From a bacterium (GTDB lineage: Bacteria > Fibrobacterota > Fibrobacteria > UBA11236), in assembly GCA_900299345.1 (NCBI GenBank), contig OMJM01000042.1, forward strand, positions 1 through 64,000: 64,000 bases of DNA. The letters are read 5' to 3'. A program made the position numbers and the translations under genes. The number at the start of each line of letters is the position of its first letter. Within the stretch, counting starts at the first letter, position 1. Below the pieces are notes generated by a model. That model was not told the origin of the DNA. It saw only the letters and a list, made by a program, of their open reading frames with translations, and made no database searches. Positions 12,882-61,190 of this stretch are shown here, in pieces.

Positions 12882-12891
12882 TTTTCCGTCC

Positions 12892-14562: not shown

Positions 14563-14614
14563 GTTTCTTCCTTTTTTGGTTGAGCAAAGATAGAAGGTTC
14601 TAGTTTCTCACCGC

Positions 14615-15464: not shown

Positions 15465-15468
15465 GCCG

Positions 15469-16341
15469 TTATTCCGCGCTGGCGTAAACACGCGCCGGGA
15501 TCTTCAGATTTGCAATGCGTCCAAGCATTTCTTCAAGGAACGAAAGCTTCACTCCCGCAATCCGGGAATCCGCTGGTCGACGCGCCAAGGTGTACAATTG
15601 CACTTCGAGAATCCTTGCACCACTTGCACGAAGCCGGGCCAGCCTGTTGAGATACGCGGCGATCTCCTCTTCGTCCCAACCTTTCCCCTCCATCGTGCAG
15701 AAGAAAGATTGGATCTTGAACGGCCAGTTCCGGCCGAGACCCACAAGATTAGACTCCACATGGTCCAGGGATACGCGACTCATATTGACCTGCTGATACC
15801 ACGCTTCGGTACCGGCATCGAGTTTCGCCCAGACTTCGCCGTTTCGGGAAAGCAAAGCTTCGATTCCGGCCTGCACCTTGGACCGATCCAGCAAGGTTCC
15901 GTTGGTGATGAGCACCAGTTTGAACTCCAAGTCCGACCTGTGCAACTGGATTTCATGAAGTAAAGCGCAAACATCCGCAAACTCCGGAACCATGGTGGGC
16001 TCGCCGTCTCCCGAAAGCGCGATGTCCTGCAATTTCTTTTCAGCGTCAGGGACGGCCTCGAACATCGGCAGACGGCACACCCCCTGATCATCCACGGATT
16101 CCAGCAATGCTTCGACTTCCTCACGGATGCGCGGCAAGTCCAGTACCTGCTTCCTACCCGGCGTGGTGCGATCCACCTGGCAATACGGGCAATCAAAATT
16201 GCACAGCTTGTCCAGATTCAAGTTCACGCCAATCGACACGCCGCCGGAACGCCGCGAAAGCACCAGATAGGCATAGGTGAAATTCGCGTACTCACGGGGA
16301 TGCAATCGGTGCAGTTGTGACTTGGAGGAAGCCATGGCCAT
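15469..16341 (-). CDS. Radical SAM protein (COG0731-like)
   Basis: A radical S-adenosylmethionine enzyme of about 290 residues. The 4Fe-4S site is C47-x3-C51-x2-C54 in LCNFDCPYC, followed by the SAM-contact stretch ALSGDGEPTM and LITNGTLLD. It looks like the COG0731 group related to the core of wybutosine synthase Tyw1, but the substrate in bacteria is not known. I chose the ATG at 16341 because it overlaps the lpxB stop as TGATG; the longer upstream frame is not family-like. It sits between lpxB and rsmE in one operon. Confidence 0.78.
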   Translation of the reverse strand: MAMASSKSQLHRLHPREYANFTYAYLVLSRRSGGVSIGVNLNLDKLCNFDCPYCQVDRTTPGRKQVLDLPRIREEVEALLESVDDQGVCRLPMFEAVPDAEKKLQDIALSGDGEPTMVPEFADVCALLHEIQLHRSDLEFKLVLITNGTLLDRSKVQAGIEALLSRNGEVWAKLDAGTEAWYQQVNMSRVSLDHVESNLVGLGRNWPFKIQSFFCTMEGKGWDEEEIAAYLNRLARLRASGARILEVQLYTLARRPADSRIAGVKLSFLEEMLGRIANLKIPARVYASAE

Positions 16342-17417: not shown

Positions 17418-18100
17418 GGGATTGATTCGACGTCCAGTTCCAGCAGCGAATCAATCGTGACGTGAGACGATCCAGCTTCCGATAGTGCATCATGCGGACG
17501 CACCCACACGGTGGTCCATCCATGTGCTTTCGCCTGGTCCAGATTGTCAAGCCGATCGTCGGCGAATATCAGTCGGGCATCGCCATGCTGATTGCGGATA
17601 TAATTCCCTGCTTTGATAAATGCCGCGGCGTTGGGTTTTCCGTACCATTCCATGAAACCGATGTCCAGAATACCATGCAATGACCCAACTGACGGCTCGT
17701 TTGCCCGAACATCCGGATGAAAATCGGAAAGCCCCATGGTGAGAAGACACCGATCTGCCCAATCGCGCCGTGCATTGGTGAACAGATAGGTGGGAAGACG
17801 CATCACAGTCTTTGACAGCCACTCCCGCATACGGGGATCCGGAGGGGGCATCAACGTGTCCTCCAAATCCTGGATGAAATCGCAGTAGCGTTCGCGGTCC
17901 ACACCATGCGCTATTTCCAACCCCTTCAAGGTCGTCCCATAGCGCTCGCAGAAATCCCGCCGCAAGGCATCGGCTTCGTTCGGCGGCAGGTTCAGGTGAA
18001 CACGGATATATTCCGTGATCTTCGCATCCACCGCCGTCTGGGTGGGAACGGTGGACGGGTACAAGGTGTGGTCGAGATCGAGAAGTAGAACGCGGGACAT
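17414..18100 (-). CDS. HAD-family phosphatase (pyrimidine 5'-nucleotidase type)
   Basis: A cytoplasmic HAD hydrolase of 228 residues. Motif I DLDHTLYPS contains the nucleophile D8 and acid D10, motif II is LFTNARRDW, and motif IV is IFADDRLDNLDQAKAHGW. The HTLYPS form of motif I and the helical cap match the pyrimidine 5'-nucleotidase (Sdt1-like) group. The ATG at 18100 starts the protein right before motif I; longer upstream starts add non-conserved residues. It overlaps lpxB by four bases and leads the HAD-lpxB-radical SAM-rsmE operon. Confidence 0.8.
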   Translation of the reverse strand: MSRVLLLDLDHTLYPSTVPTQTAVDAKITEYIRVHLNLPPNEADALRRDFCERYGTTLKGLEIAHGVDRERYCDFIQDLEDTLMPPPDPRMREWLSKTVMRLPTYLFTNARRDWADRCLLTMGLSDFHPDVRANEPSVGSLHGILDIGFMEWYGKPNAAAFIKAGNYIRNQHGDARLIFADDRLDNLDQAKAHGWTTVWVRPHDALSEAGSSHVTIDSLLELDVESIP

Positions 18101-18124
18101 CGGCAAACAAATTCCAAAATAGGA

Positions 18125-19096
18125 ATGCATATTTCGCCCGTGCCCCTTCTGGAAGCCCGTGACCTCCGTATCCATATCCACACCGAAAGCGGACTTTCCC
18201 GCGCCGTGGACGGGGTAAGCTTCTCCATCCAGGCCGGTGAAGCGCTGGCCATCGTGGGCGAATCTGGATGCGGCAAAAGCCTCACGGCCATGGGCATCAT
18301 GGGATTACTCCCGCCCTCGGCATTTTACGCCGCAGGTTCGCTGCAATACGAAGGCCGCGATATTCTTGATCTCCCGGAGGCTAAAAGACGTGCCTTGCGT
18401 GGCCGCGAGATGGGAATGGTCTTTCAGGATCCCATGCAGTACCTGAATCCCGTTCTGACCTGCGGCAATCAGGTTGCCGAACCCCTGCGAGTACTGGATG
18501 CACAATCCCATGGGCAAGCGCGGCAACGCGTGCTGGAACTGTTCCGCGAAGTCGGCCTTCCGGATCCGGAGCGCCAGATGGAACGTTACCCTCACGAACT
18601 TTCCGGGGGTATGCGGCAGCGCGTTTTGATCGCCATGGCGCTTGCCTTGAAGCCGAAACTCCTCATTGCCGACGAACCCACCACGGCTCTTGATGCCACA
18701 GTGCAAGCTCAAATTCTGCAACTGCTCCGCCGCTTGTCGAAGGAGCACCGCATGGCGTTGTTGATCATCACCCATGATCTGAACGCAGTGTCGCAGGTCG
18801 CGGATCGCGTGGCCGTCATGTACGCAGGGAAAATCGCGGAAATGCTTTCGGTACATCAACTTTTTGCGGGTCCGCGTCACCCTTATGCCCGTGCTTTGCT
18901 CGATTCCATGCCCGCACGGATTCCCGCCGATCAACCGTTGCGGGGCATTCCAGGTCAGGTACCGGATCCCCGCAATCCGCCACAAGGCTGCCGATTCCAC
19001 CCCCGCTGTTCGAGGGCATTGGAATCCTGTTCCCGGCTGGAGCCCGTATTCACCGACGACGTGGCCTGTCACAATCCCTGGCCGGTGTCCGTATGA
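18125..19096 (+). CDS. Peptide/nickel ABC transporter ATP-binding protein (OppD/DppD-like)
   Basis: An ABC ATPase of 323 residues. It has Walker A GESGCGKS (about 41-48), signature LSGGMRQR and Walker B LLIADEPTTALD. The C-terminal extension ends in NPPQGCRFHPRCSRALESC, the Cys-rich tail typical of oligopeptide and dipeptide importers. It would energise import through an OppB/OppC permease, but no permease or binding protein lies nearby. The start is ATG at 18125; a GTG five codons in is also possible. Its stop overlaps the next gene's ATG by four bases. Confidence 0.88.
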   Translation: MHISPVPLLEARDLRIHIHTESGLSRAVDGVSFSIQAGEALAIVGESGCGKSLTAMGIMGLLPPSAFYAAGSLQYEGRDILDLPEAKRRALRGREMGMVFQDPMQYLNPVLTCGNQVAEPLRVLDAQSHGQARQRVLELFREVGLPDPERQMERYPHELSGGMRQRVLIAMALALKPKLLIADEPTTALDATVQAQILQLLRRLSKEHRMALLIITHDLNAVSQVADRVAVMYAGKIAEMLSVHQLFAGPRHPYARALLDSMPARIPADQPLRGIPGQVPDPRNPPQGCRFHPRCSRALESCSRLEPVFTDDVACHNPWPVSV

Positions 19097-20067
19097 TCGT
19101 CCCCCAACGGAATACTCCCCTGCTCACTGCACAGGGAATCAAGGTCCATTTTCCGATCAAGTCGGGATTCTTACGGCGTGTCACGGGATCGGTTAAAGCC
19201 GTCGATGGAATCGATCTCACCGTAAATCCAGGAGAAACCCTCGCCATTGTTGGAGAGTCTGGATCCGGTAAAAGCACGTTGGGACGGGCATTGCTTCGTC
19301 TCGGACCGATGACCGAAGGAACGCTGCGCTGGGACAGCACAATGGATCTTCTCGCCATGGATGCCGATGTATTGAGAAACTTCCGCCGGAATATGCAGAT
19401 GGTTTTTCAAGATCCCCACGCCTCCTTGAATCCACGTCATACGGCCGGATTCCTGCTTGCAGAACCTTTGCGCATTCATGCATTGGCTTCGGGGAAGGAA
19501 CTCGACGATCGGGTGGATGCATTGCTCAAATCCGTTGGGCTTTCACCGACGGATAAGTCGAAATACCCGCATCAGTTTTCGGGCGGCCAGAAGCAACGTC
19601 TGGCCATCGCCCGCGCCCTGGCCGTAGAGCCGAGGCTGGTAGTGGCGGACGAACCCGTTTCCGCACTGGACATGTCGGTACAAGCTCAGGTGCTGGGATT
19701 GCTCGAAGAGCTGAAACAAAATCTCGGACTGACCTACATCTTCATTTCCCATGACCTTGGAGTGGTGCGCCGTGTTTCAGATCGGGTACTGGTCATGTAC
19801 TTGGGTCATGTGGTCGAAGAGGCGGATACCCATTCCCTATTCCAGAATCCCGTGCACCCTTACACACAGGCCTTGATCAAGGCATCCACGGCGGGCTCCG
19901 GTGAGACAAATCCACCCCTTACCGGAGAAATCCCAAGTCCGTCAAATCCACCTCCAGGCTGCCCCTTTCAAACCCGTTGTCCGAAGGTCATGGAAAAGTG
20001 CCGCCGGGAATATCCGAGTTGGACCCCCAGAGACGGGGGGCGGGTAGCCTGCTGGCTCAATCCTTAG
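19093..20067 (+). CDS. Peptide/nickel ABC transporter ATP-binding protein (OppF/DppF-like)
   Basis: The second ABC ATPase of the pair, 324 residues. It has Walker A GESGSGKS, signature FSGGQKQRLAIARAL and Walker B LVVADEPVSALD. The C-terminal domain ends in NPPPGCPFQTRCPKVMEKC. OppD and OppF normally form the ATPase heterodimer of one importer. The four-base ATGA overlap suggests coupled translation. A separately encoded permease must be assumed. Specificity (peptides, nickel or other) cannot be read from the ATPases. Confidence 0.88.
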   Translation: MIVPQRNTPLLTAQGIKVHFPIKSGFLRRVTGSVKAVDGIDLTVNPGETLAIVGESGSGKSTLGRALLRLGPMTEGTLRWDSTMDLLAMDADVLRNFRRNMQMVFQDPHASLNPRHTAGFLLAEPLRIHALASGKELDDRVDALLKSVGLSPTDKSKYPHQFSGGQKQRLAIARALAVEPRLVVADEPVSALDMSVQAQVLGLLEELKQNLGLTYIFISHDLGVVRRVSDRVLVMYLGHVVEEADTHSLFQNPVHPYTQALIKASTAGSGETNPPLTGEIPSPSNPPPGCPFQTRCPKVMEKCRREYPSWTPRDGGRVACWLNP

Positions 20068-31280: not shown

Positions 31281-31792
31281 CGCGCTCCGCGGGCCATTTT
31301 CTTCAGCTTCGGCTCATTCATCAATCGATCGGTGGCGGAGATCTTGTCCACGAACAACACCCCTTCGAGATGATCGATCTCATGCTGGATGCAGCGCGCC
31401 AGCAATCCGTCGAGATTTTTGAGTTCGACGGGCTTTCCGTCGTAGTCAAGCGCCTTCAAAGTGATGGTTTCTGGGCGCGTAACATCGGCCCAGACATCCG
31501 GCACTGAAAGACAGCCTTCCTCGGCCACTGCTTCGCCGCTGGAGGACACAATCTCCGGGTTGAAGAACACGCGCGGGTCACGCTTTTCTTCACCGCCGAC
31601 ATCCACCACGATCAACCGCACTGATTCACCAATCTGAGGCGCGGCCAGACCAATGCCGTTGGAGGCGTACATGGATTCCAGCATCTCGTCAGCCAACCGT
31701 TTGAGCGCCGGGCTTACGGAAGTAACAGGCTTGGCGCGCTTGCGCAAAACCGAATTACCGTAAACCAGAACGGGACGGGCGGTCACAATCAC
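31277..31792 (-). CDS. def: Peptide deformylase
   Basis: Def removes the formyl group from the N-terminal methionine of new proteins. All three metal-site motifs are present: GIGLAAPQIG (about 47-56), EEGCLSVPDV (about 93-102) and QHEIDHLEGVLFVD (about 136-149). The 171 residues are typical. The start is GTG, overlapping the yajC stop by four bases; its own stop overlaps the spoIID GTG. The yajC-def-spoIID string is probably one coupled operon. Confidence 0.96.
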   Translation of the reverse strand: MIVTARPVLVYGNSVLRKRAKPVTSVSPALKRLADEMLESMYASNGIGLAAPQIGESVRLIVVDVGGEEKRDPRVFFNPEIVSSSGEAVAEEGCLSVPDVWADVTRPETITLKALDYDGKPVELKNLDGLLARCIQHEIDHLEGVLFVDKISATDRLMNEPKLKKMARGAR

Positions 31793-32073
31793 CCCTTGGC
31801 CTCGACCTTGTCCGGACTCACGGCTTGGGCAATCGCACTTTTGTCGAAATCGATGCGGGCGCCGCCATTGAATTCAAGCGTGATGAGGCTGTCCTTGACG
31901 GCGTAGACTTCTCCGTACATTCCGGAGGTGGTCAACACCCGATCTCCCCGTTTCAAAGAGCCGAGCATCTTGTTCAGCGCCTGCTGTTTGCGGCGTTGGG
32001 GCAGGAAAAACAGGAAATACATGATGAGGATTGTTGCCAGCAAAAACACCAAGTCCATGGTTCCGAACTTCAC
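31789..32073 (-). CDS. yajC: Preprotein translocase accessory subunit YajC
   Basis: A 94-residue inner-membrane partner of SecDF in the Sec translocon. One membrane span (about 8-24, VFLLATILIMYFLFFLP) is followed by the conserved RRKQQALNKMLGSLKRGDRV. The rest is a small soluble domain with GMYGEVYAVKD. The start is GTG with GAGGAG upstream, which favours it over the ATG five codons later. secD and secF are not adjacent. Confidence 0.9.
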   Translation of the reverse strand: MKFGTMDLVFLLATILIMYFLFFLPQRRKQQALNKMLGSLKRGDRVLTTSGMYGEVYAVKDSLITLEFNGGARIDFDKSAIAQAVSPDKVEAKG

Positions 32074-32191
32074 GAATCAACTCCTCGGGCATGGAAAGTC
32101 ACACCCAGTTTTTTGGTTTTGGGAAAAATTAGCAAGGGGAAGGGATCGCCAAAGGACGGAAATTACGGCCAATTCTACCTTGGAGCACCCG

Positions 32192-40794: not shown

Positions 40795-42525
40795 CTAAGG
40801 CAATGCCTGAATCCAGCGGTATTTGAAAGCGCCTTGTTCCAACTCTGGCAACTTGAATACATCACCCGGCTTGAGGCTCTTAATTTCCCACATCTTGCGA
40901 CCCATCAGATCAAACAACTGGAATCCCTTCATGCCCTCGGGAACTGTAACCGGACTGCCCGAACGCAGGTTGATGACCCAGCCACTCGCACGCGCGCCAT
41001 AGCGGGCATTGGGGTTCAGAATGGGGGTGTTGTTGGGCTGCTCCAATTTCGGTTCCGATGGGCGGCAGGAACCGGTGTAAGAAATCTTCTCGATCCGAAT
41101 ACCATTGGGGGATGAGAAATTGGTGTTGCCATATTCCACGATGTACAAGGCGCCATCTGGCCCCGCCTTGAAATCAACCGCGCCATAAAACGTGTGATTG
41201 GCGAAGATGCGTTGGGATGCCGTCACCGCCGTTCCCAAGCTGTCCAAAGTTCGCACCATGATCTGGTTGCCATCGTGATCGGTGGTGAACCATTTACGCG
41301 TGAAATGCGGAGGAAACTTGACTGAAGAATTCAAGTCTCCGTTGTAGCGATAGATGGGACCGGTGATCGGGCTGCTGCCTCCGGGCAGAAAAAACGCAGG
41401 TCGTGCAGCAGGCAGGGTGTCCAAACCGGTATTAAACACCGATGTGTTAATGGGAGTCGCCGCAATTTTCCCACCTGAAAATGTGGTATTGTTGCCGACG
41501 AAATAAGGCCATCCTTCGAATCCGGGAGTCTGACGAAGATTCACTTCTTCGCGGACCGCACCGGTCAGGACGTCGGGGCCGACGTCGCCCCAAGCCACCC
41601 AGCGACGCACCGGATCCAAAGCAAGGCTGTAAGGATTGCGATTGCCCTTGATATAAATCTCCGGAGCCACCTTGCTTGTGTCCAGATATTTGCTCTTGCC
41701 CGTTTGCTGCGCGAAATATTCTCCGAAGTTGCCGCTGGGAATGCTGTAACCTTTGGTGGAATTATCGGGATGGATGCGCAGAATGTTCCCCCGCAAGCCT
41801 TTGGTGCTGCTGGCCCCCCACTGATCACTCTCGTATTTCTTGGTCTCATCCATGCCTTCGGGAGGATTCGTCGTATTTGACCCCGCGCGCCCTCCGTTGT
41901 TGCCCTGGGTGATCCACAAGTCACCGTAGGCGTCGAATTCCATGGCGCCGCCGGTGTGGCAGCAGGTCTGACGCTGGCCGGGAATTTCCAGAATCACTTT
42001 TTCCGAGCTCGGCAAAATCGTATCGCCATTCGCGCCGGTGGTGATGGTGAAACGGGAAACACGGAACACTTCGTTGGTGGCGGGCAACGGAGACCAGTGG
42101 ATGTATACCCAGCGATTGGTCTTGAAATTCGGATCCAATGCAATGCCCGTGACGCCTTCCTCGACCGAAGTGCTGTTCTTGACCGTCAGGTAGTCATTAT
42201 TACCGGTTCCCCGTCCCCAGTTGGGCAGCTGCGTCAGGAGTTTGATGGTCTTGGTCGCGGCGTTGTACCGTTTGATCTTGCCCGGACGGATTTCGACCCA
42301 ATAAACGTCGGTGTTCCCGCTGGCGTCCATATCAAACGCGATCTTGTCCGGTTCCGACAAAATCGCGGTATCCGCATTCGTCTTTTTAATCACCAAGGTG
42401 TCGTATTTGAAGTCCGCATCCGTCACATTGGGGCACCCCGGCCACGTCCAGCTCGTTTGGGACCATGCCGACGTGGCGACAATAACCATCACGCAAAGTG
42501 CCACTGATTTTCCTGAAAGCCGCAT
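40795..42525 (-). CDS. Secreted PQQ-dependent sugar dehydrogenase-like protein, paralog 3
   Basis: 576 residues. A signal peptide ends near SAWSQ (about 22). The propeller body has EEGVTGIALDPNF, QTCCHTGGAMEFDAYGDLWITQG (active-site His region) and GNRNPYSLALDP with the conserved Arg. A short C-terminal segment with QLFDLMGRKMWEI is a reduced form of the sorting tail seen in paralogs 1 and 2. GGGAG precedes the ATG. Cofactor and substrate are inferred from the family only. Confidence 0.8.
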   Translation of the reverse strand: MRLSGKSVALCVMVIVATSAWSQTSWTWPGCPNVTDADFKYDTLVIKKTNADTAILSEPDKIAFDMDASGNTDVYWVEIRPGKIKRYNAATKTIKLLTQLPNWGRGTGNNDYLTVKNSTSVEEGVTGIALDPNFKTNRWVYIHWSPLPATNEVFRVSRFTITTGANGDTILPSSEKVILEIPGQRQTCCHTGGAMEFDAYGDLWITQGNNGGRAGSNTTNPPEGMDETKKYESDQWGASSTKGLRGNILRIHPDNSTKGYSIPSGNFGEYFAQQTGKSKYLDTSKVAPEIYIKGNRNPYSLALDPVRRWVAWGDVGPDVLTGAVREEVNLRQTPGFEGWPYFVGNNTTFSGGKIAATPINTSVFNTGLDTLPAARPAFFLPGGSSPITGPIYRYNGDLNSSVKFPPHFTRKWFTTDHDGNQIMVRTLDSLGTAVTASQRIFANHTFYGAVDFKAGPDGALYIVEYGNTNFSSPNGIRIEKISYTGSCRPSEPKLEQPNNTPILNPNARYGARASGWVINLRSGSPVTVPEGMKGFQLFDLMGRKMWEIKSLKPGDVFKLPELEQGAFKYRWIQALP

Positions 42526-42620
42526 CGCCGTCTCCCTGTTTAGAGCCTCAACAATCTAACGTGAAAAGCCCTTTCCCGAAGGGGATTTCCATCCGATTTC
42601 TGTGTAAAATTCATGACTCC

Positions 42621-43589
42621 ATGTTTTTTTCAACCCATCGCCCGAGCTGGTTTTCTCGTATCATCGCGCCCTTATCGCCGCTGTACGCATTGCTCCGTTT
42701 CCTGCACGGAACATTTTGGCTGCGAACGGGAATCCACGATCCAAAACACCTTCTTCCCTTGGTAGTAATCGGATCCCTGCGGGCGGGCGGGGCCGGAAAA
42801 ACTGCGGTGGTCCTGGAACTTGCACGACGACTTAAGTCGCAGAGATTGCGTGTCGCGATATTGGCATATCGAATCCAAAAAAATGCGAACCCCGCGCTCT
42901 TGTTCGAAGTAACCTCGAACATGGACTGGAAGCAGTGCTCGGATGAGGCGGTCCTGCTGGCGCGCGAAAGTGGTATGCGGGTTTTTGTCACACGGAACCG
43001 CGAACACGCTTGGGATGCCTTGAGTCGATCCAACGAGTTCGACGTCCTCATTTCGGATGACGGACTTATGGATCCGCGTTTGCGAAACGCGTTCCGAATA
43101 GTGCTGAAGCGTCCGGAGGAAAACCCCGGAATCTTCGATCTTTTACCTGCTGGCCCTTATCGCCTGACTTCTTCGTTTCTCAAGGAGGCGGATTGTGTTG
43201 TTCTGGGTCCATCGAACGAAACAGGATCAGATAGTGCATGGTTCCGACGCGAACTGATTTTTCCCAAGGGATTCGACTTTGAAAAAAAATATTGGGCGGT
43301 CTGCGGCATGGGAAACCCAACTGACTTTGTCCGAGATTTGCGTTATGCGCGTGTACATCTGGCAGGGATCTCTCACGGCCCAAACCACGCGTTACCCGAG
43401 CTTGACAGGGTGTGGCGGCAGGCCGAACGATGCGGCGTGAAACGGTTCGTGTGTTCGGCAAAGGATTGGATCAAGTTGGAAAGTTCTCCCATCTCCGGTT
43501 CCGTGGACGTGATTGGCGAACACATGGAACTCGGGCCCGGACTGCTGAACGCCGTGAAGAAGTATCTGGCAAGCCATGCATCTTCGTAG
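42621..43589 (+). CDS. lpxK: Tetraacyldisaccharide 4'-kinase
   Basis: LpxK phosphorylates the 4' position of the lipid A precursor at the inner membrane. The 322-residue protein starts with an amphipathic N-terminal segment (SPLYALLRFLHGTFW). The P-loop reads GSLRAGGAGKTAVV and the catalytic region ISDDGLMD; most LpxKs have DDGLQH. The later SAKDWIKL matches the KDxVK motif of the family. I chose ATG 42621 because the upstream frame is not LpxK-like. It overlaps the propeller gene by 14 bases. Confidence 0.85.
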   Translation: MFFSTHRPSWFSRIIAPLSPLYALLRFLHGTFWLRTGIHDPKHLLPLVVIGSLRAGGAGKTAVVLELARRLKSQRLRVAILAYRIQKNANPALLFEVTSNMDWKQCSDEAVLLARESGMRVFVTRNREHAWDALSRSNEFDVLISDDGLMDPRLRNAFRIVLKRPEENPGIFDLLPAGPYRLTSSFLKEADCVVLGPSNETGSDSAWFRRELIFPKGFDFEKKYWAVCGMGNPTDFVRDLRYARVHLAGISHGPNHALPELDRVWRQAERCGVKRFVCSAKDWIKLESSPISGSVDVIGEHMELGPGLLNAVKKYLASHASS

Positions 43590-45831
43590 ATTAATGTGCA
43601 GCATGCGTCTTGCCGCGTTTATTTCATCCCTTCTTTTCCTATTCGCCGCGAAATCCTTTGCCTATGTCGGCAAATGGCACAGCTTCACGAACAAGGAGCG
43701 CGTCACTTCCCTGATTTCGCACGGCGGGTATATCTACGCTGGAACGCAAGGAGGCATCCGCCGCATCGACCCGGTGACACTCGCAGAAAAAGATTATGAC
43801 AATCTCGACGGACTGCTCGATTGCTGGATCACAGGCCTCGCGGAAAGTGACGACGGAACACTCTGGGCTGTTGCTCGCGATGGTTATGTCTATGCGCTTT
43901 CCAATGACCGATGGGAAGCCTACGGCCGAAGCTACGCCGCCCAGAAATGGGTGATGAACGACCGGGCTGCCCTGACCGCCGGGCAGTATCTCTTTCTGGG
44001 ATCGGAAAAGGGATTGACATTGTTCGATCTCGACCAGAAAGTTTCCCAGGCCAATATCACGCGCTTTGACACCTTGAACGGAAGTCCTGTCTTCTCGTTG
44101 CTGCGCCGGGCGGACACGTTGTATGTGGGAACGGCCGACGGCGTTTACAAGGCAGGTGTAGATTTCTCCAACCCCGTCAACCCCGTCAACCCCGCAGCGC
44201 GCTATGGGAATCTTGCAGATTCACGCATATGGAAACGGGTGAATCTAAGCATCATCGATTCCTCCACGATGCAACTGCGGCGTTACGAATTCATGGCGTT
44301 CATCGGCGATTCACTGGCCACTTACGGACCGGGAACTTTGCTGCAATCCCCCATTCACGTAGAAGCATTCGGGGAAAAACCCGTTCAGATTGGCTCCTCC
44401 ACATTCTCCTCGATGTTCGCAGTGACCGCCGTGAATCTCGACGGCAAGGTGTTTCTGGGTGGACGAAACGGTATCTTCGTTTCCGCAAATGCCGCGAGCG
44501 CCACTCCCACCCTCTCTTCCATTTCCCGCCCTTCGCTGGTTCCCAGCGATACCATCTGGAACATCACGGCCAATGGCGGGAAGTTGTGGGGACAGTCCGT
44601 CAATGGTCTCTACAGCCTCAGCGCATCCAGCGGCGATTCATTGTCGTTCAACGCCTTCTATATCGTCGGCGGGCCGCGACTCATCACCACCGAATTTCTC
44701 TACCGCAACCTGAGCAACCTGAAAGCCGATGCGAATGGCGATGTGTACGCCGGGCTATGGGGAGGCAGTCTGGTGCGCGTGCGGAATGAAGTCGAGCAGG
44801 CGTGGAGCACCACGACGCCTGTCAATACGTGCATTCAACCCACGTCACCATCATGGTATCCGGTTTACGCGTTGAATCCTCCATTCAAAAACCATGTTTT
44901 CTTTTCCCTCTTCAAGGGAGAGAACGTCTATACCCATCGCCTCATCCATCTCAACACGGCCACGGAACAAATCTCCTGTCCGGATACGATGGCAGTGGGC
45001 GGTTATCCCCACGCGATCCGCATGTTCTCCGACTCGTTGCTGGGCATTGCCAGCGATCTTGGTGTCGGCTTTTACAAGGTGCGGGAGGCTTTCAACTCCA
45101 TCTTGTTGACGCCGGTGGGACTTTCGTCCTCGGCGGGATTATGGACAGGAGAGGGTTCGGCCAATGAAACGTGGGGACTTGCCACTGATGCTATGGGAAG
45201 GCCCTGGGCTTTGATGGCGGATCAACTTTTCTATGTCGAAAAAGATACGCTGGATTCGGCCATGATACGCCCGGGAAGCGTCAAGCAGCGACTCCAGGCC
45301 GCCGAAGGTTTCACCGGAAAGGAGTGCTATCATCTCGATGGAGATCCGGTCGGCTCCCTGTGGGCGGCGTGTAGCAATGGGCTGTATCACATTCAACCCG
45401 GCCCATCGGGCATCGGGAAGGTGGAGCGCTATGGGCTGGATCAGGGCTTGCTAAGCCTCACCATCAACGACCTCAGCGTGGATCCCTCCAATGGGCAGGT
45501 CTGGATCGCCACGGATCGCGGCATCAGCATGCTGGAGAGCGCCTCGCAACCTCCGGTGAAAACGTTGAGCAGCGTCCAAGTGTATCCCAACCCATTCCGG
45601 CCACAACACCGGTTCGTCATCTTCGACAATCTCCCCCAAAACTCGACCTTGCGCATTCATAACGCCGCCGGGACCGTGGTTCGGATTTTTCATCCTTCCG
45701 AACTGACCGGACATCAAGCCCAATGGGACGGAACCAACCAGAACGGCAAATCCGTGGCGGCGGGCATCTATCTCTACAGCGTCACTTCAGGCTCCTCGGT
45801 CGAACGGGGCAAGGTGATCGTGGCGCGGTGA
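43576..45831 (+). CDS. Exported beta-propeller protein with C-terminal sorting domain (PorZ-like layout)
   Basis: 751 residues. A signal peptide (FISSLLFLFAAKSFA) is followed by propeller repeats of the two-component-regulator type (ISHGGYIYAGTQGGIRRID, LWGQSVNGLYSL, VWIATDRGISMLES). The last about 90 residues begin VYPNPFRP and end AGIYLYSVTSGSS, a FlgD-like/type-A sorting domain. The layout resembles PorZ of the type IX secretion system, but similarity is by architecture only. ATG 43576 gives a long N-terminus; ATG 43603 is an alternative. A short nine-base tandem repeat encodes PVNPVNP near 44170. Confidence 0.7.
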   Translation: MHLRRLMCSMRLAAFISSLLFLFAAKSFAYVGKWHSFTNKERVTSLISHGGYIYAGTQGGIRRIDPVTLAEKDYDNLDGLLDCWITGLAESDDGTLWAVARDGYVYALSNDRWEAYGRSYAAQKWVMNDRAALTAGQYLFLGSEKGLTLFDLDQKVSQANITRFDTLNGSPVFSLLRRADTLYVGTADGVYKAGVDFSNPVNPVNPAARYGNLADSRIWKRVNLSIIDSSTMQLRRYEFMAFIGDSLATYGPGTLLQSPIHVEAFGEKPVQIGSSTFSSMFAVTAVNLDGKVFLGGRNGIFVSANAASATPTLSSISRPSLVPSDTIWNITANGGKLWGQSVNGLYSLSASSGDSLSFNAFYIVGGPRLITTEFLYRNLSNLKADANGDVYAGLWGGSLVRVRNEVEQAWSTTTPVNTCIQPTSPSWYPVYALNPPFKNHVFFSLFKGENVYTHRLIHLNTATEQISCPDTMAVGGYPHAIRMFSDSLLGIASDLGVGFYKVREAFNSILLTPVGLSSSAGLWTGEGSANETWGLATDAMGRPWALMADQLFYVEKDTLDSAMIRPGSVKQRLQAAEGFTGKECYHLDGDPVGSLWAACSNGLYHIQPGPSGIGKVERYGLDQGLLSLTINDLSVDPSNGQVWIATDRGISMLESASQPPVKTLSSVQVYPNPFRPQHRFVIFDNLPQNSTLRIHNAAGTVVRIFHPSELTGHQAQWDGTNQNGKSVAAGIYLYSVTSGSSVERGKVIVAR

Positions 45832-46541: not shown

Positions 46542-47669
46542 CTAGCCTGCCGTCGCATACAGGCCTTCCAACGCTTCAATTTCTTTGTTGATATCATGGT
46601 CTTTTTCGATCTTGGTGCGACCTGATCGACCCATCAATCCCCAACGGTCGGACTCCTCCGCCATCCTTCGCAGCATATAGGCCAGTCCCATCGCGTCGCC
46701 TTCGGGAGCCAGCCATGCGCTGTGCTCGGGCACAGTGACGTAGGGAATGTCTGCATGCATCGTTGACACCACCGGCATACCGCATGCTTGCGCCTCAAGG
46801 AGAACCGTGGGCGCGCCACCTTCAGAGTCTCCATCGAAAGCCGTGCGCGAAGGTTGCAGCAGTACGTCGTGCTCAGCCATGGCCAGACGCATTTCTTCCA
46901 AGGTGCAGTAACCTTGAAATTCAACCCGATCCTGAAGTCCCAAACGGACGGCTTGGTCTTCCAACGCCTTGCGCAACGGTCCGTCACCCAGCACGGTGAG
47001 GCGCCACGGAAAATCCACACGCGAATCGGCCAGCGCGTCCAACCCTACGGACAATCCCTTTTTCTCGACCAAACGCCCCACAAAAAGAAAATGCACAGGA
47101 CGATTTCCATCCCATGCACGCTCACGGAAGTGATATTCCATCGGATCAATGGCAATGCGTTGAATCCGGATTTTTTCCTCGGGCGCGCCCAGTTCGATCA
47201 GCCTCTGCTGCATCGCAGGACCTTCCACGATCAAGAACCGTGCGGAAGCAAACACCTTTCGATATCCGGCTTCGGCGCGCTTGAGAAAGGTTTTTTGGGA
47301 AACGTCAGCTCCGTAAAAATTGACGAGCAGTGGTTTTCCCAATGTCCGCACAAAATCATGAGTGACCACCGCCCGAAAACCGTTGTGGGCATGGCACACG
47401 GCAATCTCCCTGTTGCGCAATATTTCAAAGGCTCCGGGATACTGAACGGGCGCATAAGAGCCTGCCATTCGTGCCAAAAGTTTCGCAATCATCGAACGAC
47501 GCGATGGAAAGCGCAACAACTCACCATTGGCCAGCGGGAATCGTTCCAGATTCTCCCACATGTCAGCCAGCACAAGCGGCTGGAAACGGCGCGACTTGCG
47601 CAGGGATTGCCAGATGAATGTCTCCGTGCGATGCAGATAGGCATCCAGCAAATGGAGGCATGCTGGCAT
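46542..47669 (-). CDS. Glycosyltransferase family 4 (group 1)
   Basis: A GT-B-fold glycosyltransferase of 375 residues. The N-terminal acceptor domain includes VCHAHNGFRAVV. The C-terminal donor domain has FLFVGRLVEKKG (about 200-211), LGDGPLRKALE and EGGAPTVLLEAQACGMPVV with the E-x7-E motif. The N-terminus (DAYLHRTETFIWQSL) matches exopolysaccharide-type GT4 enzymes. Donor and acceptor sugars are unknown. The ATG at 47669 overlaps the thiS stop as TGATG, an unusual partner for a glycosyltransferase. Confidence 0.85.
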   Translation of the reverse strand: MPACLHLLDAYLHRTETFIWQSLRKSRRFQPLVLADMWENLERFPLANGELLRFPSRRSMIAKLLARMAGSYAPVQYPGAFEILRNREIAVCHAHNGFRAVVTHDFVRTLGKPLLVNFYGADVSQKTFLKRAEAGYRKVFASARFLIVEGPAMQQRLIELGAPEEKIRIQRIAIDPMEYHFRERAWDGNRPVHFLFVGRLVEKKGLSVGLDALADSRVDFPWRLTVLGDGPLRKALEDQAVRLGLQDRVEFQGYCTLEEMRLAMAEHDVLLQPSRTAFDGDSEGGAPTVLLEAQACGMPVVSTMHADIPYVTVPEHSAWLAPEGDAMGLAYMLRRMAEESDRWGLMGRSGRTKIEKDHDINKEIEALEGLYATAG

Positions 47670-47869
47670 CAACCACCGCCCATGAACTTCACGATTTCAA
47701 CCGTGTCCCCATCCTTCAATTCGATGCTTGAGTAATCCGATTTCGGAGGGACCTTGTAATTGTATTCCACAACCACGGACTCCGGTTTCAATTGATGGCG
47801 ACTCAGCAAACCGGCAATGGTGAGCACCCCTTCGAATTCGGCAACGGCTCCGTTTAGATGCAGCTTCAT
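47669..47869 (-). CDS. thiS: Sulfur carrier protein ThiS (ubiquitin-like)
   Basis: A 66-residue beta-grasp protein ending FMGGG. The terminal Gly-Gly becomes thiocarboxylated and donates sulfur, classically to the thiazole of thiamine. The family pattern is seen in VVVEYNYKVPP, ELKDGDTVEIVKFMGGG. Three terminal glycines rather than two are slightly unusual. No thiF, thiG, thiH or thiO lies nearby. Instead it is coupled to a glycosyltransferase, so a role with another sulfur-using pathway cannot be excluded. Confidence 0.82.
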   Translation of the reverse strand: MKLHLNGAVAEFEGVLTIAGLLSRHQLKPESVVVEYNYKVPPKSDYSSIELKDGDTVEIVKFMGGG

Positions 47870-47952: not shown

Positions 47953-49275
47953 ATGCCGAGTAAGAGAACCATTTCCGGCTGGGGGCGATACCCGGTCATT
48001 GAAGCTCGCGAAGAATTTCCCGCGGGACGCGAAACACTTTCCCCGAAGCTGAACGCTCCTTATCTTCCTCGTGGACAAGGCCGAAGCTATGGGGATGCGG
48101 GCCTCCCCGCATCTGACCATACCGCTCTTAACACCTCTTATCTCGATCGTTTCATCTCTTTCGATCCCGTCACAGGAATTCTGGAAGCAGAGGGCGGCGT
48201 GACCTTGGAGCGCATCCTTCGCTTTTCACTGCCGCGCGGTTTTTTTCTTCCGGTGACTCCTGGAACCATGTTCGTCAGTCTCGGTGGAGCGCTGGCCAGC
48301 AATGTGCATGGAAAAAACCATCATCGCTGCGGATCCATCGAACACTTTGTCACCGAGTTCGAAATCGGGACTCCCTCCGGAACTTTCACCTGTTCGCGAG
48401 AGAGCAACCGCGAGCTTTTTCTTGCGACCTTGGGCGGCTACGGACTGACCGGAACCATCACGCGCGCCAACCTGAAACTGAAACCTGTCACCTCGATTCA
48501 AGTGGATTGCCTGCGCATCCGCGCGAAAAATCTGGAGGCGATGTTCCGACTGTTCGAGGAACACGATACCAACTTCGAATATTCCGTGGCATGGATGGAC
48601 GCTTTGGCAAAAGGGGGAAATCGCGGCCGTGGGATCCTGATGCTGGGAAACCACTCCGACATGCCAGTCACAGGAAACCGCTCCCGTGAAAAAACCAAGT
48701 TGCGAGTTCCTTTCCCCATGCCCGGCATGCTGATGAACAACGCCTCACTCAAAGTCTTCAACACTGCGATCTACCTTTTCAGCCGACACGGAAAATCACG
48801 AGAAAACTTTGAATCGTTCTTCTATCCGCTCGACCGTATTCTCGACTGGAATCTTTTGTACGGCAAACAAGGATTCCTGCAATACCAGTGCGTCATTCCT
48901 GATCCACACGGCCAACAGGGCATCGAGTCCTGTCTGCGCTTTCTCAGCGACAACGGTCTGGGCTCCTTTGTCTCCGTGCTCAAGCGCTGCGGAGATGACG
49001 AGGTGATGCTGCCTTTCTGCAAACGCGGCTACACATTGGCCTTGGACATTCCTTTCCATGGTACGAAAACTTTGCGGGCGTTGGATCGGCTGGACGCCTT
49101 GGTGATCGATTATGGCGGTCGCGTGTATTTGACCAAGGATGCCCGTCTCAAACCCGAAGCTTTTCGCGCCATGTATCCCGAATACAAGACGTGGATGGAC
49201 ACGATCCGACACTTCAACCCCGAGGGTAAAATTTCATCGCGCTTGGCGGAAAGGCTGAAGCTGTGGGACGCATAG
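47953..49275 (+). CDS. dprE1: DprE1-like FAD oxidoreductase (decaprenylphosphoryl-ribose 2'-oxidase family)
   Basis: A 440-residue vanillyl-alcohol-oxidase-type flavoprotein. FAD-binding signatures are LPRGQGRSYGDAG (about 38-50) and PVTPGTMFVSLGG with ASNVHGKNHHRCGS (about 95-125), the close DprE1 pattern. Near the C-terminus VYLTKDARLKPEAFRAMYP contains the lysine that corresponds to the DprE1 substrate lysine. DprE1 oxidises polyprenyl-phospho-ribose at C2. Adjacent dprE2 and ubiA genes support this over an aldonolactone oxidase. ATG 47953 has no clear ribosome site. It diverges from thiS. Confidence 0.8.
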   Translation: MPSKRTISGWGRYPVIEAREEFPAGRETLSPKLNAPYLPRGQGRSYGDAGLPASDHTALNTSYLDRFISFDPVTGILEAEGGVTLERILRFSLPRGFFLPVTPGTMFVSLGGALASNVHGKNHHRCGSIEHFVTEFEIGTPSGTFTCSRESNRELFLATLGGYGLTGTITRANLKLKPVTSIQVDCLRIRAKNLEAMFRLFEEHDTNFEYSVAWMDALAKGGNRGRGILMLGNHSDMPVTGNRSREKTKLRVPFPMPGMLMNNASLKVFNTAIYLFSRHGKSRENFESFFYPLDRILDWNLLYGKQGFLQYQCVIPDPHGQQGIESCLRFLSDNGLGSFVSVLKRCGDDEVMLPFCKRGYTLALDIPFHGTKTLRALDRLDALVIDYGGRVYLTKDARLKPEAFRAMYPEYKTWMDTIRHFNPEGKISSRLAERLKLWDA

Positions 49276-49994
49276 TCATCTTCTCCGCCACCTCCGGCAT
49301 CGCTCGTGCCGTGGCCGAGGAATTTTTGGCCCAAGGCGAGGAACTGGTTCTCACCGGACGCTCCAAGGAAAGCCTTGATGCCGTGGCACGGGATCTTCAA
49401 GTCCTCAGCGGTAAAGCCATTCCCTGTTTCGTGTGGGACGTTCTGGGTTTCGCGGAACATGAACGCTTGTTTCGGGAATTGATTGCCGTACACGACATCA
49501 GCGGACTTTTCATGGCTGCCGGCATCCAGATTCCACAAAAGGAATGCGATGCCGAACCCGCAAAAACCTTGCTGACCTTCAACACCAATCTGAACGGCCC
49601 GGTGGCCGTGATGACCTTGTTCGCGCAACACTTCAAACAAACGAATTCCGGATTCATCAGCTGCGTATCCTCGGTAGCTGGAGATCGTGGGCGCGGCAGC
49701 ATCACGGCATACGCATCGTCAAAGGCAGGGTTGAGCGCGCACCTTCAGGGACTGGCCAACCGTTTGAAAAACACAGGCGTATTGATCCAGTGCGTCAAGC
49801 CAGGCTATGTGCGCACCCCGATGACGGCGGGCCTCCGCAGTCTGTTAATCGTTTCCCCCCGTTGGGCGGCACGCGACATCGTGAACGCCATCCGGAAAAA
49901 ACGCGAGGTGGTTTACACCCCGTTCTTCTGGAAGTACATCATGCTCGTGATCCGCGCCATCCCGGAACCCTTGTTCAGAAAACTGGGATTATGA
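49263..49994 (+). CDS. dprE2: DprE2-like short-chain dehydrogenase
   Basis: An NAD(P)-dependent SDR of 243 residues. The nucleotide loop reads IFSATSGIARAVAEEF (about 5-20), a variant TGxxxGIG. The catalytic set is Ser in VSSVAG, then YASSKAG (Tyr-x3-Lys). The C-terminal IPEPLFRKLGL resembles the hydrophobic tail of DprE2. It would reduce the keto product of DprE1 to polyprenyl-phospho-arabinose. The GTG start overlaps dprE1 by 13 bases, and its stop overlaps the ubiA ATG by four, so the three are tightly coupled. Confidence 0.82.
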   Translation: MGRIVIFSATSGIARAVAEEFLAQGEELVLTGRSKESLDAVARDLQVLSGKAIPCFVWDVLGFAEHERLFRELIAVHDISGLFMAAGIQIPQKECDAEPAKTLLTFNTNLNGPVAVMTLFAQHFKQTNSGFISCVSSVAGDRGRGSITAYASSKAGLSAHLQGLANRLKNTGVLIQCVKPGYVRTPMTAGLRSLLIVSPRWAARDIVNAIRKKREVVYTPFFWKYIMLVIRAIPEPLFRKLGL

Positions 49995-50881
49995 ACTCCA
50001 AGCCGCTGGTCTGGCTGCGCTTATTGCGTCCTTCGCACTGGATCAAGAATCTTTTCGTGCTGGCCGGCGTTTTCTTTTCGGGAAACTGGCGGCAACCCGG
50101 GATGCTGATGCTTGCGTTTGAGGCATTCCTCGCCTTCTGCCTGGCATCCAGCGCCGTATACTCCCTGAACGATACATGGGATTGCGAAGTGGACAAGAAC
50201 CATCCCCGCAAACGGCTGCGTCCGATTGCGGCTGGTTTGCTTTCACGGAATACAGGCTATCTGACTTCGGGAGTTCTAATCCTGTTCGCAATGGTTTTAG
50301 GTTTGCGTGCTTCCGGTTTATTAGCCCTTGCTTTGGCCGCTTATATCGTGGTCAACATCCTGTACTCGCTGAACTTGAAAAACCGCGTGTTGCTCGATGT
50401 CTTTTGCATCGCCTTCGGGTTCATCATCCGGTTGCTGGCGGGAACGTGGGGGCTGGGCATCGCTCCTTCGCAATGGTTTCTTTTGTGCACACTTTCACTC
50501 AGCCTCTTCCTGGGTTTTTCCAAACGCTATGCCGAACTCATCGACAAAGAGCGGCCGCTGGAGGAAAAACGCCGGGTGCTGCAGAATTACACGCCGGAAT
50601 TTTTACGCCTGTTGTTGAGTGTGACCTTGTCGGCATCTCTCATTACCTACGCCTTGTACACCACCAGCTCCCGTACCGCCGAAGTGCATCATACGGCCGG
50701 GCTGATTTATACCCTGCCGCTGGTGTTGTGGGGCCTGTTCCGTTATCTGTACCGGGTGATGCACGGAGGGTTCGGAGAAAACACCGTGGCCGACGTGTTG
50801 CGGGACCGGCAAATGCTGCTGGTTTCACTGCTTTATCTGATCGCCACCGGAAGCCTGCTTTTTTTCGGCGGATCCGGTTGA
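49991..50881 (+). CDS. ubiA: UbiA-family polyprenyl-phosphate phosphoribosyltransferase (Rv3806c-like)
   Basis: A polytopic membrane prenyltransferase of 296 residues with about nine spans. The first Asp-rich motif, YSLNDTWDCEVDKNHPRKRLRPIAAG (split here into its N-D-x3-D-x3-D pattern and HPxKRxRPIA), closely follows decaprenyl-phosphate phosphoribosyltransferase. The second site shows RYAELIDKE. The Rv3806c enzyme moves phosphoribose from PRPP to decaprenyl phosphate, the first step before DprE1. The ATG at 49991 overlaps dprE2. The phosphatase expected between the steps is not seen nearby. Confidence 0.85.
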   Translation: MNSKPLVWLRLLRPSHWIKNLFVLAGVFFSGNWRQPGMLMLAFEAFLAFCLASSAVYSLNDTWDCEVDKNHPRKRLRPIAAGLLSRNTGYLTSGVLILFAMVLGLRASGLLALALAAYIVVNILYSLNLKNRVLLDVFCIAFGFIIRLLAGTWGLGIAPSQWFLLCTLSLSLFLGFSKRYAELIDKERPLEEKRRVLQNYTPEFLRLLLSVTLSASLITYALYTTSSRTAEVHHTAGLIYTLPLVLWGLFRYLYRVMHGGFGENTVADVLRDRQMLLVSLLYLIATGSLLFFGGSG

Positions 50882-57976: not shown

Positions 57977-58630
57977 ATGAACATCGAGATCTGGTCGGAC
58001 GTGGTGTGTCCATGGTGCTACATCGGCAAACGCCGGCTGGAATCCGCGCTGAAACGGTTCCCACATCGCGATGAAGTTGAAATCTTGTGGCGCAGCTTTG
58101 AGCTGGATGCCGATGCACCGCGCAACTTCGATGGGACTGCGGATGAACGCATTGCTAAAAAATATGGAATGAGCCTGGCCCAAGCCGCGACCTCTCACGA
58201 GCGCGTGACGACGCTGGCCGCGAAAGAAGGACTCGAATACCATTTCGAATATTCGCAGTACGGCAATACCTTTGATGCACACCGGTTAATCCATTTCGCA
58301 AAGACCAAGGGGTTGCAGGGAGAAATGAAAGAGCGTTTGATGAAGGCTTATTTCACGGAAGGTGAAGCCATCAGCGATATCGACACCTTGGTCAAACTCG
58401 CGGTGGAGTTGGGAATGAACTCTGACGAGGTACGCGCGGTGCTGGAGGGTGACAGCTATGCTTCGGAAGTGCGCGCTGACGAAGAATTAGCCATCAAGTT
58501 CGGCATCCAGGGAGTCCCGTTTTTTGTCATCAATCGAAAGTATGGAATCTCCGGCGCCCAGCCCGTCGAAGCCTTTCTCGAAACGCTGGAACGCGCACGG
58601 GAAGAATCTGCCGCCACGTCTGCAAGTTAA
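57977..58630 (+). CDS. DsbA-family oxidoreductase, FrnE-like
   Basis: A 217-residue cytoplasmic thioredoxin-fold protein. The active site is CPWC (C11, C14) in SDVVCPWCYIGKRRLE. The helical insert carries YHFEYSQYGNTFDAHRLIHFAKTKG (landmarks NTFDAHRL) and the cis-proline loop is GVPFFV. This is the FrnE/polyketide-isomerase-like group, linked to oxidative stress in some bacteria. The ATG at 57977 has GAGG upstream; longer in-frame starts lack similarity. Its stop overlaps that of the flippase gene by four bases. Confidence 0.9.
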   Translation: MNIEIWSDVVCPWCYIGKRRLESALKRFPHRDEVEILWRSFELDADAPRNFDGTADERIAKKYGMSLAQAATSHERVTTLAAKEGLEYHFEYSQYGNTFDAHRLIHFAKTKGLQGEMKERLMKAYFTEGEAISDIDTLVKLAVELGMNSDEVRAVLEGDSYASEVRADEELAIKFGIQGVPFFVINRKYGISGAQPVEAFLETLERAREESAATSAS

Positions 58631-60096
58631 CCGGGTTGTCTGCCGGGGAGCTTTGCCACGATTTCCAGCACGGCCTCTCGTACTCGTTTTTGTTGCAGAA
58701 GCCATGAGGATGCGGCAAAAACAACAACGCCGATCAAGGCTTTCACGACCAGTTCCGTCCAACGGTTCAGGTCCAGATCCCATTTGCTGAAAAGCTGCAT
58801 CACCAGCGCCGAGGCCGCTGCAAACGGCAATGCCCAACCCATCGCCAAAGTCATGCGCAAGGGCGGCACACCGATCCATTTGCGCGCCAAATAGAGATCC
58901 AGCGGCATAGTCAATGCCACGGAAATGACCATGCCCCAAGCGACTCCGCGCAAGCCGTGAGAAGATCCGATCAAAACGGCAGCCGTGTTCATCGCCAGCG
59001 TCAGCACATTAATCCAGAACCCTGTTCCCGCGCGGCCCAAGGCCAAGGTAAGGCTGGCCAACGGATTCGACACTGCCCACAAAAAACCCAGTCCAGTCAG
59101 AATCCAAAGCACTGGAACGGCTGGTGCCCACCCCTCCCCCAGTACAATGCGGCACAGGGATCCTGCCAGGCCAAACAGAAGCGCGTACAATCCGGCCGAC
59201 AAAAACGCCAATAGCGAAAGCGACCGCAACAAAGAAGACGCCAGTCTTTCTTTCTCCTCTTGCAAACGCGCGAAGAGCGGAAAAAGGGTGCGGAACACGA
59301 AGGGCCCCAGCAAAGCCAACGGCCGCAACGCAATCTGCGAAGCCACTGTGTAATATCCCGCCGCGGAAGCGCCAAGCAGACGCGCGACCAACAAACGATC
59401 GAGATTTCCCGACGCGTAATTAAGAACGCGCTCACCCATTTGATAGGTCCCGAAAGTTGCCAGCGGACGCAGGTCATCCCAGCTTAAGCGTGGAAATGGA
59501 CGCAACGATGAAAACACGCCCAACATTCCGCAGCGCACAGCTAACAAGGCAACTTGTCCCGCCACCAAGGCCATGGCTTCGCGCCGCCACAACCCCCAAC
59601 CCAGCGCCACGGTCAATGAAGCGAGAGCGGCAAGGATTTCCGCAGAGGCAAGACGCTTGAAGCTCAAACGGCGCTGCAGGTCCGCCTGAAAGACGAGACC
59701 CGGACCCGCAAATGGAAGCGTCAACGCGGCGACACACAACAGCGGCACCAAACCCTGAAGGTGCAATAGGTGTTCGAATCCCGAAGAGACCGCCGTGAGT
59801 CCCACGAACAACACCAGCCCTCCAAGCACGCAGGCCCACAAGGCACTTGCCCAGGCCTTCTCGCCGATTTGAACGCGCTGCACCAGCGCATTAGTCAATC
59901 CAAGATCCGTCAAGCCTTGCGCAAACCCGGCGATGGAAATGGCCGTGGACGCCAGACCAAATTCGGCCGGACTCAGCCAGCGCGCCAGTACGACGAGTTG
60001 CAATAACTGCGACAAGAGAGTGGCGCCCGCCGCCACCGCATTCCAGCGCATGGCAGATCCAGCCTCACGAGCCAGCGAACCCGTCTGTTCCTTCAT
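58627..60096 (-). CDS. Polysaccharide flippase (Wzx / RfbX family)
   Basis: A membrane protein of about 489 residues with 12-14 spans. It starts with an amphipathic segment and LLSQLLQLVVLARWLSPAEFGLASTA, the classic N-terminus of oligosaccharide flippases of the MATE-like MOP superfamily. FGTYQMGERVLNYASGNLDRLLVARLLG in the middle (landmark NLDRLLVARLLG) matches the LPS O-unit/teichuronic type. It moves lipid-linked oligosaccharides across the inner membrane. The ATG at 60096 overlaps the GT4 stop by four bases. Confidence 0.87.
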   Translation of the reverse strand: MKEQTGSLAREAGSAMRWNAVAAGATLLSQLLQLVVLARWLSPAEFGLASTAISIAGFAQGLTDLGLTNALVQRVQIGEKAWASALWACVLGGLVLFVGLTAVSSGFEHLLHLQGLVPLLCVAALTLPFAGPGLVFQADLQRRLSFKRLASAEILAALASLTVALGWGLWRREAMALVAGQVALLAVRCGMLGVFSSLRPFPRLSWDDLRPLATFGTYQMGERVLNYASGNLDRLLVARLLGASAAGYYTVASQIALRPLALLGPFVFRTLFPLFARLQEEKERLASSLLRSLSLLAFLSAGLYALLFGLAGSLCRIVLGEGWAPAVPVLWILTGLGFLWAVSNPLASLTLALGRAGTGFWINVLTLAMNTAAVLIGSSHGLRGVAWGMVISVALTMPLDLYLARKWIGVPPLRMTLAMGWALPFAAASALVMQLFSKWDLDLNRWTELVVKALIGVVVFAASSWLLQQKRVREAVLEIVAKLPGRQPG

Positions 60097-61190
60097 AGAC
60101 TCAGAAATCCACCCAAGCGGTTGGCATAGGCTTCCCAATGCCAGTGTTCACGGGCCTTGCGACACACCGACACGAAATGTTCGTAATCGGACACCAGCTC
60201 TTCCAAGCCGCGCGCAATGTCCTGCGGAGAATACGAGTCGACCACCACTCCCACCCGGAACTCCTTCAACAACTCCCGATGTGCGAGATTGTCGCTCAAG
60301 AGGACGGGACACAACGCGTGTACATAATCGAAAATCTTGTTGGCCCATGTCAGGGCAAAACTGTCGCACACGGGCTGCATCAGATGAATCCCGACATGGG
60401 CTTGCGCAATAAGTCCGGGAAGCTTTTCAAAAGGCACTGCGCCATGAAAAACGACGCGCTCGCGCAGCTCTCCGGCTTTCATGCGCAAGTTCATTTCTTC
60501 CAATCCCGCGCCGTATACATCGAGGCAAAAACGAGTCTCGGATTGCATGGCAACGAATAATTCCGGCAAGCCAGTGGCAGTCCGCAGCCCCCCCTGAAAA
60601 ATCAAACGCGCCTCGTTCGTTGGAGGCATTCTCTCCGCGACAAGTTCAGGCACCGCAAAAGGCATGTTGGGCTGCAAATGAAAATCCACCGTGGGATGGC
60701 GTTCCTTCAAGCGGTTCACAATGGCCGGGCTCACGGTGATACACTTGCGAATCAGCGCGAAGCCGCCGTTTTCCCAAAGCCGCCAGAAGATTCGACGGCT
60801 GGGGCGGTTCAACACCAACGGCGTTTCAAGGAACAATTCGTGTGAATCGTAAATCACCGTGCGACCACGTAGCTTGCCCCAGAACGCCAGCCAAAACAAC
60901 GGCGGCGCATCCAGGGAAATCCATATCTTCGCGGGACTGCGCCACAACACCGGCATCAAGCGCAATAGGAAGGAAAGAAACACGGGGAAAAAACTTCGCT
61001 GATGGGACTCTGACGTCAGTACACGCACCTCAAACCCGTCCCATGCCGGTCCCAGGGAATGTACGGGCTTGTCGCAGTAGATGACGGGCTTGTATCCGAG
61101 ATTCCGCAGCGATTTTGCCAGCTTGAAACAGCGGTGATCCGTACCCAAGTCGGTCAGGATGGCGAAGAGGATTTCAGGCGTAGATGACAA
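60093..61190 (-). CDS. Glycosyltransferase family 4-like
   Basis: A GT-B glycosyltransferase of 365 residues. The N-terminal half has AILTDLGTDHRCFKLAKSLR and VIYDSHELFLETP, typical of GT4 enzymes acting on surface polysaccharides. The donor half shows RLIFQGGLRTATGLPEL, LDVYGAGLEE and FALTWANKIFDYVHALCPVL. The start is a TTG at 61190; I see no in-frame ATG near the expected N-terminus. It is coupled to the flippase and diverges from the GT9 gene. Confidence 0.82.
   Translation of the reverse strand: MSSTPEILFAILTDLGTDHRCFKLAKSLRNLGYKPVIYCDKPVHSLGPAWDGFEVRVLTSESHQRSFFPVFLSFLLRLMPVLWRSPAKIWISLDAPPLFWLAFWGKLRGRTVIYDSHELFLETPLVLNRPSRRIFWRLWENGGFALIRKCITVSPAIVNRLKERHPTVDFHLQPNMPFAVPELVAERMPPTNEARLIFQGGLRTATGLPELFVAMQSETRFCLDVYGAGLEEMNLRMKAGELRERVVFHGAVPFEKLPGLIAQAHVGIHLMQPVCDSFALTWANKIFDYVHALCPVLLSDNLAHRELLKEFRVGVVVDSYSPQDIARGLEELVSDYEHFVSVCRKAREHWHWEAYANRLGGFLSL

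Follow-up and report, generated by a model that had tools for sequence, protein, structure and literature searches.

A predicted dprE1-dprE2-ubiA module for a lipid-linked D-arabinofuranose donor in a lipid A-producing member of Fibrobacterota

The stretch of DNA analysed here (the window) comprises the first 64,000 nucleotides of contig OMJM01000042.1. It comes from a bacterium of the phylum Fibrobacterota, as had been suspected from the letters alone, and its genome (G000) is assembled in 91 contigs. Three intact and co-directional genes, dprE1, dprE2, and ubiA, occupy 47953-50881 of the plus strand (Table 1). dprE1 and dprE2 overlap by 13 bases, dprE2 and ubiA by 4 (in ATGA), and no promoter was detected in a promoter scan. 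The original prediction named these three enzymes in this order, and their best relatives are indeed DprE1, DprE2, and Rv3806c. Its lipid A context is borne out by the presence of both lpxB and lpxK in the window, from which, as it also stated, an obvious phosphatase and a receiving transferase are absent. The module is flanked upstream by a ThiS-like gene, a GT4 glycosyltransferase gene, and an FkbM methyltransferase gene, and downstream by valS. The GT4 gene is regarded as context and not as a pathway enzyme; in the sister genome G002 it is syntenic, between lpxK and ubiA. The ThiS-like protein (66 aa, with GGG at its end) is encoded between GT4 and dprE1. The window also encodes a secreted, propeller-like protein whose C-terminus has a weak signal for type IX secretion (it matches Por_Secre_tail and CHU_C, both below cut-off).

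Table 1. Coordinates of the module genes and of other features discussed in the text
Feature	Source	Coordinates	Strand	Remarks
dprE1, predicted FAD-dependent polyprenyl-phospho-ribose 2'-oxidase	window	47953-49275	+	440 aa
dprE2, predicted SDR-type 2-keto-pentose reductase	window	49263-49994	+	GTG start, 243 aa
ubiA/DPPR synthase, predicted PRPP:polyprenyl-phosphate phosphoribosyltransferase	window	49991-50881	+	296 aa
lpxB	window	16344-17417	-	
lpxK	window	42498-43586	+	
propeller-like secreted protein	window	43576-45828	+	
GT4 glycosyltransferase	window	46542-47672	-	Pfam Glyco_trans_1_4 2e-25
ThiS-like protein	window	47669-47869	-	
Wzx/MOP-type polysaccharide flippase	window	58627-60138	-	Pfam Polysacc_synt_3 4e-58
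HAD-IB candidate	G000, contig C54	~31395-32150		
short TMEM260-like GT-C genes	G000, contig C19	1-5308		three in tandem
dprE1-dprE2 and ubiA region	G002	8709-20000		
dprE1 and ubiA	G007	8902-11234		
GT-C to HAD gene row	G045, contig C163, L180	2824-7028		

UbiA exceeds the cut-offs of two NCBIfam 'decaprenyl-phosphate phosphoribosyltransferase' equivalogs (244.4 bits against 234 and 213.2 against 207), and a PDB search returns Rv3806c (8j8j, 5.4e-36), two chains being the only matches. Substrate-binding residues of Rv3806c, which are among the reported PRPP and polyprenyl-phosphate contacts (PMC10994848), were mapped by alignment. Ten of the 12 are kept (Rv3806c numbering): R22, K28, Y70, N73, D77, K87, R90, Y138, and K143, which are all nine PRPP-site residues tested, together with K191. 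The two changes are Q135N and Y157F. In Rv3806c, K28 and Y70 hold the 5'-phosphate of PRPP, and conservation of the phosphoribose site does not extend from Rv3806c to the UbiA superfamily (PMC10994848). Therefore, this residue pattern argues for a phosphoribosyltransferase. An AlphaFold2 model of UbiA (pLDDT 91.5) matches 8j8j with TM 0.85/0.87 and E 7e-13, compared with 1.5e-5 for the next UbiA fold. The best reading of sequence and model is that UbiA would transfer phosphoribose from PRPP to polyprenyl phosphate.

DprE1 scores 309.7 bits against the NCBIfam DprE1 equivalog (NF053785) and 38.4 against the next model. The score is under the equivalog cut-off of 500 bits, which none of the 61 related genomes reaches. 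Its best PDB relative is DprE1 (4aut, 1e-60), the top nine PDB matches are all DprE1, and identity to M. smegmatis DprE1 is ~32%. By alignment to the PDB match, with positions in M. tuberculosis numbering anchored on C387, H132, G133, K134, W230, Q334, Q336, K367, and K418 are kept, while Y314F, F369C, N385T, and C387A are changed. C387 is the cysteine bound by benzothiazinones, and in M. avium and M. aurum the natural residue at this position is alanine or serine (PMC6015584), so C387A is not counted against function. A search of the G000 genome with PF04030 (ALO) gave zero matches, and the reading of DprE1 as an aldonolactone oxidase thus fails. Loss of active-site residues or a better match to other oxidases, either of which the original prediction would have taken as evidence against it, is not what is found: the active-site residues H132, K134, Q334, Q336, K367, and K418 are all kept and the DprE1 model outscores other oxidase models by 270 bits. 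The protein is predicted to catalyze the same reaction as DprE1.

The closest PDB relative of DprE2 is M. tuberculosis DprE2 (21gq_C, 4.6e-25; next match 4.3e-13), and the alignment of the two takes in the C-terminal segment. It scores 156.7 bits against the NCBIfam DprE2 equivalog NF053786 (cut-off 250) and is outscored there by the generic SDR model PRK07102, whose 239.3 bits are also under its own cut-off of 267. After the Rossmann core, a C-terminal segment of the type 'YTPxFWxxIMLxIxxIPExxFxxL' is common to DprE2 and 25 DprE1-linked reductases. In a fold search with the DprE2 model, generic SDRs rank first and 21gq is absent among the 50 matches listed; the modelled fold alone is uninformative about identity. 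Since the curated cut-offs are not reached, DprE1 and DprE2 are called DprE-like.

The changes in DprE1 bear on the sugar that is made. Y314F, F369C, N385T, and C387A are at positions lining the inhibitor pocket (PMC6015584), identity to the mycobacterial enzymes is only ~29-33%, and related systems produce ribofuranose or xylofuranose (PMC11127046). All three would fit an epimerase pair of shifted specificity, with the module making another pentofuranose or using another polyprenyl-phospho-sugar. We consider this unlikely, however. The full C2' epimerase pair is retained alongside its UbiA, and K418, H132, K134, Q334, and Q336 are kept in DprE1. Moreover, xylofuranose systems have a single epimerase (ORF13 type) and lack DprE1/E2, whereas DprE1/E2 are present in the arabinofuranose versions of Gram-negative systems (PMC11127046).

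Among 61 related genomes, DprE1 matches above 300 bits are found in 12, which comprise every genome of families f1 (ten) and f5 (two). No strong DprE1 is found outside these two families, the large family f3 included. UbiA matches above 120 bits occur in the same 12 genomes and in G045. This co-occurrence of DprE1 and UbiA in 12 of the 61 genomes indicates that their grouping is not due to chance. A scan of GTDB species genomes for DprE1 gave at least 585 stretches, of which the best 80 loci were analysed. These include Bacteroidota, Pseudomonadota, Chloroflexota, Acidobacteriota, Bacillota, Ignavibacteriota, Nitrospirota, and others. DprE2 is found within 4 kb of dprE1 in 73 of these best 80 loci and UbiA in 57, proportions that are not unbiased rates as the loci were picked by DprE1 similarity. 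The original prediction implied that a pathway known from mycobacteria would be odd in a bacterium that makes lipid A. This is not supported, as homologues, mostly with dprE2 and ubiA adjacent, span many phyla, and both Gram-negative DprE1/E2 systems (PMC11127046) and an arabinosylated pilin (PMC12369383) have been described.

Chance could also have placed three genes of other kinds side by side, for an aldonolactone oxidase, some unrelated SDR, and a UbiA prenyltransferase of the ordinary sort. DprE1 and DprE2 scores below the curated NCBIfam cut-offs and the leading place of other SDRs in the DprE2 fold search would agree with this. Nevertheless, we give it next to no credence given that the genome has no ALO-domain match, the DprE1 model leads other oxidase models by the margin noted above, UbiA has the PRPP site and Rv3806c as its best fold match, and the gene set recurs across phyla.

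In the DprE1 tree, the sequences of f1 form one clade, which is joined by a Myxococcota-assigned MAG, and those of f5 are placed with Chloroflexota sequences. Because f1 and f5 stand apart in this tree, Fibrobacterota seem to have gained dprE1 at least twice, from different sources. In one of the relatives, G007, ubiA directly follows dprE1 and no dprE2 is found in the 20-kb stretch analysed. Its reductase may be encoded elsewhere, or another SDR may serve.

The commonest extra neighbour in the best 80 of the at least 585 loci is a HAD-IB protein, which exists as a separate gene in 29 and as a HAD-UbiA fusion in 10. The fusion is the arrangement characterised in Citrobacter ORF15 (PMC11127046). 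With a profile of these neighbours, a single candidate is identified in G000 (contig C54, 3.9e-17). It is not linked to the module and scores slightly below the TIGR01490 cut-off. An orthologue is present in 11 of the 12 genomes with DprE1, the exception being an 87% complete genome, and in three of the 49 without it (two of family f4 and a weak match in G045, 1.3 kb from the G045 UbiA), an association that is inflated by kinship among the genomes. In three members of the genus the HAD gene adjoins a Bac_transf-type sugar transferase gene. The DUF212 phosphatase family is absent from G000 in a genome search. By its phyletic profile, the HAD-IB protein of contig C54 is a supported candidate for the missing 5'-phosphate phosphatase. 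G045 itself, a Fibrobacteraceae genome without DprE1, has genes for a GT-C, a PPPRS-type UbiA (intact), an SMR-like transporter, an NAD-epimerase, and a HAD protein in a row. These would constitute a classical pentofuranose system, perhaps one for xylofuranose.

A GT-C-like protein is encoded in G002 divergently from ubiA, with ~65 bases between the two genes. As a direct query it finds no homologue in G000. A profile built from it and from AftB-like neighbours of DprE1 has relatives in G004-G009 (the G002 match is by construction), and the profile search detects no AftB-like GT-C in G000, G001, or G003. This pattern is what would be seen if the receiving transferase had been lost in the lineage and the donor module left alone as a relic. 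Such a history is very improbable, however, as the three genes are intact, overlapping, and retained throughout family f1. GT-C enzymes also diverge fast, G000 has other GT-C genes, and its assembly is fragmented.

The other GT-C genes include TMEM260-like ones, which are present in G000 and in all 61 genomes. They were rejected as the obvious receiver: being found in every genome with or without DprE1, they have no phyletic support. A long form (~950-1080 aa) exists in nearly all 61 relatives, and short forms are expanded in the genus of G000-G003. In G000, for example, three short genes (~620 aa) lie in tandem upstream of dnaG. That the expanded short forms use an arabinofuranose donor on surface proteins or polysaccharide is a long shot; if true, this would make them arabinosyltransferases of a new type.

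As for export, the GtrA flippase family is absent from G000 in a genome search. One possibility is the Wzx-type protein of the window, a weak assignment made from its location only, 8 kb downstream of the module. The LPG_synthase_TM protein encoded on contig C71 is another possible exporter. In Citrobacter, the exporter role has been assigned to a MATE-family protein (Kelly et al., PMC11127046).

Sequence and residues identify UbiA, DprE1, and DprE2 as the predicted enzymes of one pathway, and the three genes would together make a lipid-linked D-arabinofuranose donor, to which we give a probability of about 0.83. UbiA would join PRPP and polyprenyl phosphate into a phosphoribosylated polyprenyl lipid, from which the candidate HAD-IB phosphatase of contig C54 would take off the 5'-phosphate to leave polyprenyl-P-ribose. 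At C2', DprE1 would then oxidise and DprE2 reduce, turning ribose into arabinose. For the flippase, transferase, acceptor, and product of the pathway, we infer that polyprenyl-P-arabinofuranose would be carried into the periplasm by a flippase and that a GT-C would transfer the arabinofuranose onto an LPS glycan or a polysaccharide of the cell surface. The presence of D-arabinofuranose in a surface glycan is a prediction. This kind of acceptor is favoured by the neighbours of the module in sister genomes: in G001 it comes after genes for a UDP-sugar dehydrogenase and an epimerase, with glycosyltransferase genes facing it, and in G003 it adjoins DegT and Wzz genes. The locus of G002 has a different gene order from that of the window, with dprE1-dprE2 and ubiA ~8 kb apart around lpxK and GT4.

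The mycobacterial decaprenyl-phosphoryl-arabinose pathway (Rv3806c, Rv3807c, DprE1/DprE2) uses the same three enzyme families, the catalytic and PRPP-binding residues of which are kept here. It is for the cell wall of tuberculosis bacteria that a donor of this sugar is best known. In contrast to that pathway, the host produces lipid A, the polyprenyl is probably undecaprenyl, DprE1 has alanine at C387, the phosphatase candidate is an unlinked HAD-IB protein, and no AftB-like arabinosyltransferase is found in G000. Gram-negative three-component pentofuranose systems (e.g., Citrobacter ORF12/14/15, GT136; Kelly et al. 2024, PMC11127046) would share with it the logic of a UbiA-type PPPRS, a HAD phosphatase, export, and GT-C transfer. 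They differ in that neither a flippase nor a GT-C is clustered with the module here, and the HAD candidate is neither linked to the module nor part of a UbiA fusion. Arabinosylation of the type IV pilin in Pseudomonas paraeruginosa (PSPA7_6245-6251, TfpW; PMC12369383) likewise employs a UbiA-type enzyme for D-Araf in a Gram-negative bacterium. Unlike there, no TfpW/pilin cassette is near the module, and the neighbours in sister species suggest polysaccharide and not pilin. No earlier report of such donor synthesis in Fibrobacterota was found in a search of the open-access literature.

This would be a known pathway in a new host. DprE1 homologues are widespread in bacteria and the setting is not unusual; since the same gene set is found in many phyla, the surprise is low and the understanding of the pathway is unchanged. 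The module extends the predicted synthesis of a D-arabinofuranose donor to Fibrobacterota and gives a concrete phosphatase candidate, the HAD-IB protein. It also provides a DprE1 that is divergent and naturally has alanine at C387; this substitution is linked to benzothiazinone resistance in mycobacteria.
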